64,000 nt of DNA from contig CAADGV010000010.1 in the NCBI GenBank assembly GCA_900696645.1, positions 31,015 to 95,014 on the forward strand, given 5' to 3'. Position 1 is the stretch's first letter, and the number at the start of each line of letters is the position of its first letter. A program made the position numbers and the translations under genes. The notes beneath the pieces were generated by a model, which saw nothing but the letters and a program-made list of their open reading frames with translations, was not told the DNA's origin and made no database searches. Below are positions 40,903 to 41,371 of the stretch, one piece after another. The stretch is from an uncultured Chlorobiota bacterium (GTDB taxonomy: Bacteria > Bacteroidota > Ignavibacteria > UBA10030 > UBA6906).

Positions 40903-40989
40903 CGGAGAGGGTGGGATTCGAACCCACGGTACCCTTGCGAGTACACTACCTTTCCAGGGTAGCCAATTAAACCACTCTTGCACCTCTCC
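40903..40989 (-). tRNA. tRNA-Ser (anticodon GGA), intact copy
   Basis: On the minus strand: acceptor GGAGAGG/CCTCTCC, anticodon stem CTACC/GGTAG with loop CTGGAAA (anticodon GGA), long variable arm with GTAC/GTAC, and T-arm GTGGG TTCGAAT CCCAC. The discriminator is G; CCA is not encoded. 70 nt of it (40920-40989) recur identically at 41302-41371, 382 bp away. Confidence 0.96.
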
Positions 40990-40994
40990 AGATG

Positions 40995-41249
40995 CTATTT
41001 CAGTTCTAACAGTCGAAGTTGATCATCCAACCATTTGCGGCCAACGCCCGATTTCAAGAACATCTCCCTCCGTCTTGCAGAGGAAGAATCAGAGAACTCT
41101 TCAGTGAGAATTGACTTCCAGGGGATGCCCGACTTCGTATAAGGGGAATTTCCTCTGTTGTGTTCGCGCAGTCTCTTCTGAAGATCTTTCGTGGAGCCGA
41201 CATACCTTTTCCGGAGTTTTTCGCTCCACAATACATACACGTAATACAT
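40995..41249 (-). CDS. GIY-YIG nuclease, minimal single-domain form, between two tRNA-Ser copies
   Basis: 84 residues from ATG 41249, almost exactly one GIY-YIG domain: YVYVLWS (GIY strand), YVGSTKDLQKRLREHN (YIG strand and catalytic Arg helix) and a C-terminal helix RRREMFLKSGVGRKWLDDQL. The frame stays open back to a GTG at 41309 inside the broken tRNA, but those codons are tRNA and hairpin sequence and are left out. The stop is 5 bp before the intact tRNA-Ser; the start is 11 bp after the last base of the split tRNA copy. All lie on the same strand. The domain cuts DNA or RNA in homing endonucleases, UvrC and restriction enzymes; here the context suggests a minimal mobile element targeting the tRNA gene. 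Confidence 0.85.
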   Translation of the reverse strand: MYYVYVLWSEKLRKRYVGSTKDLQKRLREHNRGNSPYTKSGIPWKSILTEEFSDSSSARRREMFLKSGVGRKWLDDQLRLLELK

Positions 41250-41259
41250 AGTCAGTTCA

Positions 41260-41371
41260 AGGGTGGGATTCTCCGCCGGAGGCGGATGCGCCTTTGGCGC
41301 AGAACCCACGGTACCCTTGCGAGTACACTACCTTTCCAGGGTAGCCAATTAAACCACTCTTGCACCTCTCC
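41260..41371 (-). pseudogene. Split second copy of tRNA-Ser(GGA), interrupted in the T-loop
   Basis: Minus-strand 41371-41302 is identical to the first 70 nt of the intact tRNA. The T-loop is then broken by 30 foreign bases (41272-41301), after which 12 nt of the tRNA resume (41271-41260), ending two or three bases into the 3' acceptor strand. Most of the 3' acceptor strand is missing, so this copy cannot mature as a normal tRNA. Confidence 0.9.
41272..41301. repeat. Two tandem perfect 15-nt hairpins inserted in the tRNA T-loop
   Basis: TCCGCCGGAGGCGGA (41272-41286: 6-bp stem, loop GGA) is followed directly by TGCGCCTTTGGCGCA (41287-41301: 6-bp stem, loop TTT). The two together account exactly for the 30 bases that separate the two parts of the split tRNA. 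The insertion point is the TTC^GAA of the T-loop, itself a palindrome. Confidence 0.92.

Follow-up and report, generated by a model that had tools for sequence, protein, structure and literature searches.

The tRNA-Ser(GGA) locus

The window, by which we mean the whole 64,000-nucleotide stretch of DNA that was analysed, lies on contig C10 of the 4.2-Mb genome G000. It contains an intact tRNA-Ser(GGA), which a genome-wide tRNA census found to be the only tRNA of its kind in the genome, together with a gene for an 84-residue GIY-YIG protein and a second, broken copy of the same tRNA (Table 1). Read along the minus strand, the 5' part of the broken tRNA, ending GGTTC, is followed by two hairpins with a combined length of 30 bp (41272-41301), GAATCCCACCCT, a short spacer, the nuclease gene, 5 bp and finally the intact tRNA. 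An earlier, sequence-only reading of the window had reported the nuclease gene 5 bp from the tRNA, and two tRNA copies 382 bp apart and identical over 70 nt; the coordinates of both genes were confirmed, as was their common strand, and the distance between the copies is exact, the direct repeat (40920-40995 and 41302-41377) being 76 nt long, 99% identical and spaced by exactly 382. The same reading had the second copy split at TTC^GAA of the T-loop, which holds for the site of the hairpins but not for a proven point of insertion: GAATCCCACCCT resumes beyond the hairpins, so that the direct repeat proper covers nearly the whole tRNA (about 88 bp), interrupted by the 30 bp of hairpins, and the boundary of the insertion is not uniquely placeable at the T-loop.

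A chance repeat was rejected on the basis of its local-alignment score (77, against a maximum of 11 for shuffled sequence) and of the recurrence of the layout at dozens of other tRNAs, and an assembly artefact on the basis that arrays and elements were also found in single-contig genomes (e.g. G173, G228 and G214). The six neighbouring proteins that were checked are NfeD, Band_7, DNA_pol_B, a flippase, a glycosyltransferase and one that was unassigned; a bacterial family-B DNA polymerase gene lies near the element at 36362-38719 of the window.

Table 1. Positions in the window of the two tRNA copies, the nuclease gene and the associated hairpins.
Feature	Position	Strand	Evidence
Intact tRNA-Ser, anticodon GGA	40902..40989	minus	ARAGORN; Rfam RF00005, 55.8 bits
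GIY-YIG nuclease gene, 84 aa (MYYVYVLW...LRLLELK)	40995..41249	minus (the tRNA strand)	ORF; PF01541
T-arm 3' strand of the broken copy, resumed, GAATCCCACCCT	41260..41271	minus	Sequence; direct repeat
Hairpin 2, TCCGCC TCC GGCGGA	41272..41286	minus	Sequence
Hairpin 1, TGCGCC AAA GGCGCA, at TTC^GAA of the T-loop	41287..41301	minus	Sequence
5' part of the second tRNA-Ser copy, lying upstream of the nuclease gene; all 70 nt match the intact gene	41302..41371	minus	Repeat search
Repeat-to-repeat unit, 382 bp (hairpins, T-arm remnant, nuclease gene, carried 5' tRNA part)	40920..41301	minus	Repeat spacing

The nuclease protein

The 84-residue protein is a member of the GIY-YIG superfamily (PF01541, 56 bits, E 3.7e-15), with residues Y5, Y16, G18, R26 and E62 invariant across 24 relatives. 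Its predicted fold (AlphaFold, pLDDT 94.7) is nearest, among solved structures, to those of the UPF0213 proteins (1zg2, 1ywl), SLX1 and I-TevI, and UPF0213 and SLX1 gave the best profile and structure matches, whilst the match to TIGR01453 was weak and below its cut-off. Comparison with the counterpart in G001, a genome of the same genus, gave a dN/dS of about 0.12-0.18, and the protein evolves under purifying selection. Searches of phage (50,697 records), plasmid and IMG/VR collections returned no match to the nuclease family. A longer reading frame of the window's nuclease gene runs through the hairpins; GIY-YIG proteins annotated with tRNA-derived N-terminal extensions may be start-codon artefacts.

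Family genes and tRNA fragments in the same genome

Seven genes of the family were found in G000, six of them at an intact tRNA accompanied by a broken copy of that tRNA, namely Ser(GGA), Val(TAC), Leu(CAA), Ser(GCT), Gly(TCC) and Asp(GTC). The other proteins of the family are 30-41% identical to that of the window, hence the genes are not recent copies of one another. Hairpins lie in loops of the broken copy at most of these six sites; the Ser(GCT) site is atypical in having a short 5' piece only, upstream of the intact tRNA. At tRNA-Val(TAC) the nuclease gene (L002, about 1490-1510) carries an extra T in a T run near its start, either a frameshift or a sequencing error. The census counted 44 tRNA genes, each anticodon being represented once save Met (three), so that a rebuilt tRNA would be required.

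Hairpinned tRNA fragments lacking a nuclease gene occur at six further sites (Ala-CGC, Arg-CCG, Arg-TCG, Pro-GGG, Ser-CGA and Gly-CCC), and within this genome hairpinned copies without and with the GIY gene are equally common. The seventh family gene (L012/L013, G000:C11:50834-51368) is not at a tRNA; it is flanked by long palindromic repeats of the TCATCCTGAGCG... type, which carry the double hairpin at TC^GA. A double hairpin of the same kind was also seen in a broken copy of the 5S rRNA, beside an intact 5S and with no nuclease gene (L030, G000:C37, about 1440-1560 and 1761-1877), and the same 30-bp double hairpin lies apparently within a protein-coding region, where it would amount to ten codons (L011, G000:C37:6703-6734).

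Distribution and geometry among relatives

The family is present in 30 of 41 related genomes, and strong matches were obtained in 91 of the 198 genomes of a wider phylum sample. Eleven named relatives, recovered with a single-protein search, include Ignavibacteria, Omnitrophota and Patescibacteria. Both of the nearest ones, with 62% and 54% identity, lie at tRNA-Ser(GGA). Wherever the nearest tRNA is close, the nuclease is encoded on the tRNA strand, usually across a gap of 0-175 bp, and the nuclease is not equally frequent far from tRNAs; equal frequency would have counted against the sequence-only reading by its own terms. Family genes with no tRNA neighbour are found at other structured RNAs: tmRNA (L180, L228), RNase P (L231) and inside 23S (L085, L162). 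The two 23S rRNA genes concerned are those of small-genome bacteria, and at the RNase P locus the 5' region of that RNA is repeated in inverted orientation around the nuclease gene.

The arrangement of tRNA fragments was assessed for 109 distinct tRNA-adjacent genes and 115 fragments. At least one fragment accompanies 94 of the 109 genes, with none detectable for the remaining 15, and 65 of the 109 have a hairpin insert in a fragment. All 51 upstream fragments start at the tRNA 5' end and only six of them reach the 3' end, whilst 57 of the 64 downstream fragments reach the 3' end and eight begin at the 5' end; at one locus (L193) both remnants surround a single intact tRNA. This upstream-5', downstream-3' geometry marks insertion into a tRNA and the rebuilding of an intact copy, and is unexpected under random duplication. 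The survey also found units of sizes other than 382 bp, fragments on either side of the gene, and sites beyond the T-loop that the sequence-only reading had not listed, in D-, anticodon- and variable loops, which rule out that all insertions are at the T-loop.

tRNA isotype specificity

In a tree of 171 nuclease proteins, built from 77 columns and with many forks unresolved, the isotype labels available for 102 loci required 31 changes, against a minimum of 62 in 300 shuffles, and the nearest neighbour was of the same isotype for 76 of the 102 loci, against 13.6 expected. Genes that are mostly not at tRNAs form separate branches, which serve as an internal control within the tree. Vertical inheritance at one locus contributes to this clustering by isotype. 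The window's clade is found exclusively at tRNA-Ser (12 of 12) and holds both architectures, with the fragment upstream or downstream, so the inheritance of a single insertion does not account for all of this uniformity. The nuclease tree thus tracks tRNA isotype, which corresponds to the lineage-specific target site of a homing gene.

Tandem arrays

Head-to-tail units, up to eight of them, are found beside one intact tRNA, also in single-contig genomes. They include four 322-bp units after tRNA-Pro (L213), three 323-bp units before tRNA-Ser (L215) and five units after tRNA-Met (L214), together with eight units that have no tRNA recognised alongside (L216); unit length in arrays elsewhere is about 322-370 bp. 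In the tRNA-Pro array the unit's terminator stands behind the intact tRNA and a different terminator and 3' flank behind the last fragment, and on account of this difference the flank behind the intact tRNA looks element-carried, as would be expected of an element that brings its own 3' part along with its flank.

Empty and filled sites

The tRNA-Ser(GGA)-nfeD-flippase neighbourhood is conserved among relatives, and the empty sites that the sequence-only reading had proposed to look for do exist. The Ser(GGA) site is filled in G001, and empty in genomes of the same family (G004, G006 and G012), which have one plain tRNA and keep one or both of the conserved neighbours. In G002 the site has no gene and instead a tandem tRNA part with T-loop hairpins; the tRNA-Ser(GGA) segment at this conserved locus (L062) is inverted relative to both neighbours. 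Five more tRNA sites are polymorphic between the congeners G000 and G001, Gly(TCC), Asp(GTC) and Val(TAC) being filled in G000 and empty in G001, and Cys(GCA) and Pro(TGG) the reverse; Ser(GGA), Leu(CAA) and Ser(GCT) are occupied in both. The flanks of the polymorphic sites align over more than 1 kb on both sides for Gly, Cys and Pro, over a long stretch on one side for Asp and near the tRNA only for Val. At the Asp site 60 bp of flank are present twice in the filled allele; this target duplication takes in the terminator. In G002, the sequence from the intact tRNA-Gly(TCC) to the contig end holds two or more tandem units without a GIY gene, each consisting of a hairpinned 3' part of the tRNA (L270).

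Turnover of sites between G000 and G001 is fast, each case being either a gain or a recombinational loss. Since precise loss via recombination between the repeats could also give an empty site, we take gain from the sparse distribution. Presence/absence polymorphism at a conserved target, a hallmark of homing genes, is seen at these five tRNA sites and at Ser(GGA).

Hairpins and their conservation

Hairpin inserts are located in tRNA loops or spacers in 67 of 92 cases, against 41% expected by length (p 5.5e-10), within an uncertainty of a few bases in the alignments. A set of eleven 30-nt double hairpins, taken from T-loops, D-loops, the coding region and the repeats and picked for this form, has 97.7% of cells paired and 12 double changes, above all 500 shuffles; as the form was preselected, the information lies in the covariation alone. 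Hairpins at other tRNAs are in many cases unrelated in sequence.

Between G000 and G001 the nuclease gene at Ser(GGA) is 75% identical in nucleotides (dS about 0.85-1.3), whilst the tRNA fragment is identical at 70 of 70 positions and the hairpins differ in two loop bases only, the loop of hairpin 1 changing from AAA to GGA in G001 on an unchanged stem. The second locus compared, Leu(CAA), has a gene of 83% nucleotide identity and a spacer of 66%, and changes over 107 nt are confined to the hairpin loops and the terminator loop. Gene conversion could hold the tRNA part identical but not the hairpin stems, which implies that the hairpins are under constraint or continually repaired.

Interpretation

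The most probable explanation of these loci, in our view, is a homing-like minimal mobile element, one that would cut tRNA genes and bring with it a replacement for part of the tRNA. The results support the earlier suggestion that a minimal GIY-YIG unit breaks into a tRNA and brings along the part that restores it, and from them we infer its cutting, movement and transfer. The sole gene of the unit, a GIY-YIG nuclease with a UPF0213/SLX1-like fold, points the same way as the tRNA at every such site and would be driven by the tRNA promoter. The target recognised and cut by the nuclease would be one particular tRNA gene as DNA, or its loops in cruciform or single-stranded form; repair would then copy the element into the cut, with the tRNA-identical ends acting as homology arms. 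Of the host tRNA, a 5' fragment would remain upstream, a 3' fragment downstream, or both, as in the geometry observed, and the carried piece would complete an intact tRNA, so that insertion into a single-copy essential tRNA would be tolerated. The conserved palindromic hairpins in the loops of the broken fragment would belong to the element, and may block re-cutting, provide a recognition structure or kill the fragment as a tRNA. Tandem arrays could arise by repeated insertion or by unequal crossing-over between tRNA repeats, and loss of the gene would produce the leftover hairpinned tRNA fragments.

The main weakness of homing is that the rebuilt tRNA keeps its loops and should itself be a target. 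Against it are also the frequent GIY-less hairpinned copies, so that hairpins and duplication may be partly a separate process, and the related GIY gene at repeats away from tRNAs (L012). In a wider formulation, which we advance tentatively and hold with less than even confidence, the loci could represent an undescribed class of chromosomal elements of Bacteroidota, Omnitrophota and Patescibacteria, about 0.3-0.4 kb long, with one nuclease gene and with hairpin-decorated tRNA halves as ends; its isotype-specialised lineages, some of which would have moved to tmRNA, RNase P and 23S, would be joined by gene-less versions that move in trans.

The main alternative, which we consider unlikely though it has the best claim after homing, is that the palindromic repeats (REP-like, with a double hairpin of about 30 bp) are the movers and the GIY-YIG protein is their site-specific single-strand nuclease, in the manner of Ssn and the NTS of Neisseria. 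Nicking in tRNA loops would lead to tandem duplication, with hairpins pasted into one copy, and the gene would sometimes be carried without being a homing gene. This would account for one double hairpin recurring in T-loops, D-loops, a coding region (L011), the L012/L013 repeats and the broken 5S (L030), for the covariation of the hairpin stems and for GIY-less hairpinned tRNA copies matching GIY-bearing ones in frequency. It does not sit well with nuclease lineages that are isotype-specific, with gene and fragment gained or lost as one unit and amplified jointly in arrays, or with the unrelated hairpin sequences at many other tRNAs.

It is improbable that the protein is a tRNA-directed toxin or defence nuclease that cleaves tRNA as RNA and is restrained by the hairpinned fragment as a mimic RNA. 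The isotype specificity, the co-orientation with the tRNA and the strict conservation of fragment and hairpin stems would all fit such a role, but the fragments are insertion-like, 5' parts upstream or 3' parts downstream, and some are without most of the tRNA; tandem arrays and empty sites also argue against it, and the nearest structures are DNA nucleases. Two further explanations have very little probability. A remnant of an integrase-type island with a tRNA attachment site, or a relic of a group I intron, would draw on the known restoration of tRNA 3' ends by islands, on the occurrence of GIY-YIG enzymes in group I introns and on the weak TIGR01453 match noted above, yet the unit holds the 84-aa gene only, neither it nor the six neighbouring proteins tested included an integrase or transposase, an Rfam search of positions 40700-41500 gave no intron at E<=1, rebuilding of the tRNA takes place at the DNA level, restoration occurs from the 5' side too, and the same minimal content recurs in many cases. 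Ordinary tandem duplication of the tRNA followed by decay, with the nuclease gene a bystander, could draw on slippage as a source of direct repeats beside tRNAs, and is contradicted by the strand and side rules, recurrence across phyla, isotype-specific lineages and fragment conservation at a dS near 1.

Relation to known systems

A homing-like element of this kind has partial counterparts among several known systems. The Ssn enzymes of Neisseria are small, single-domain, site-specific single-strand GIY-YIG nucleases tied to short palindromic repeats (NTS); they share with the present family the small single GIY-YIG domain and the palindromic repeats, and to our knowledge they neither sit in tRNA genes nor rebuild a target gene. 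In the fungal mitochondrial endonuclease elements (Allomyces atp6, Glomus mORFs) an insert coding for a nuclease pushes aside the end of a gene and provides a substitute for it, the old end persisting as a fragment, but these involve protein genes and larger ORFs, in contrast to the tRNA genes, bacterial chromosomes and 84-aa enzyme here. REP sequences with RAYT (the REPtron) are dispersed hairpin repeats with a small enzyme, and Rickettsia palindromic elements are palindromes inserted in genes, which the double hairpin in the coding region of L011 resembles. The REP/RAYT enzyme is a Y1 transposase; a REP/RAYT system was rejected here because the sole enzyme of the unit is of the GIY-YIG type, with no Y1 transposase. 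The hairpins of the present family are concentrated in loops of a duplicated tRNA copy. Integrase islands insert at tRNA 3' ends and restore an intact gene, but they are kilobases long, whereas the element described here is 0.3-0.4 kb, has no integrase and restores the tRNA from either side. SLX1, whose fold is shared by UPF0213 and the element nuclease, works with SLX4 on branched DNA.

The nearest documented case is SegB, one of several free-standing GIY-YIG homing endonucleases of T4-like phages, which, according to the available text of the source, adjoins tRNA genes, is significantly associated with tRNAs across phages, promotes tandem amplification of segments comprising tRNA and nuclease, and has no isotype preference (PMC13096335). 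It therefore resembles the present family in the position of a GIY-YIG gene beside tRNAs and in tandem amplification (PMC13096335). SegB is, however, a phage gene, as far as that text goes without preference for isotype, whereas the family here is chromosomal with isotype-specific lineages and has no phage, plasmid or IMG/VR match; a phage homing gene of the SegB type adjoining the tRNA was rejected on the lack of any match in the 50,697 phage records or IMG/VR. The carried tRNA part and hairpinned tRNA fragment of the present family have no equivalent described for SegB in the available text (PMC13096335). An incomplete search of the open literature found no description of a bacterial tRNA-inserted GIY-YIG family.

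If the homing-like reading is true, these elements would rank with the smallest self-mobilising DNA units known, and would be an example of a mobile element landing in single-copy essential tRNA genes by carrying the repair along. The many independent cases make target specificity, the role of the palindromes and the origin of the tRNA fragments directly testable, and compact isotype-specific nucleases could be useful enzymes.
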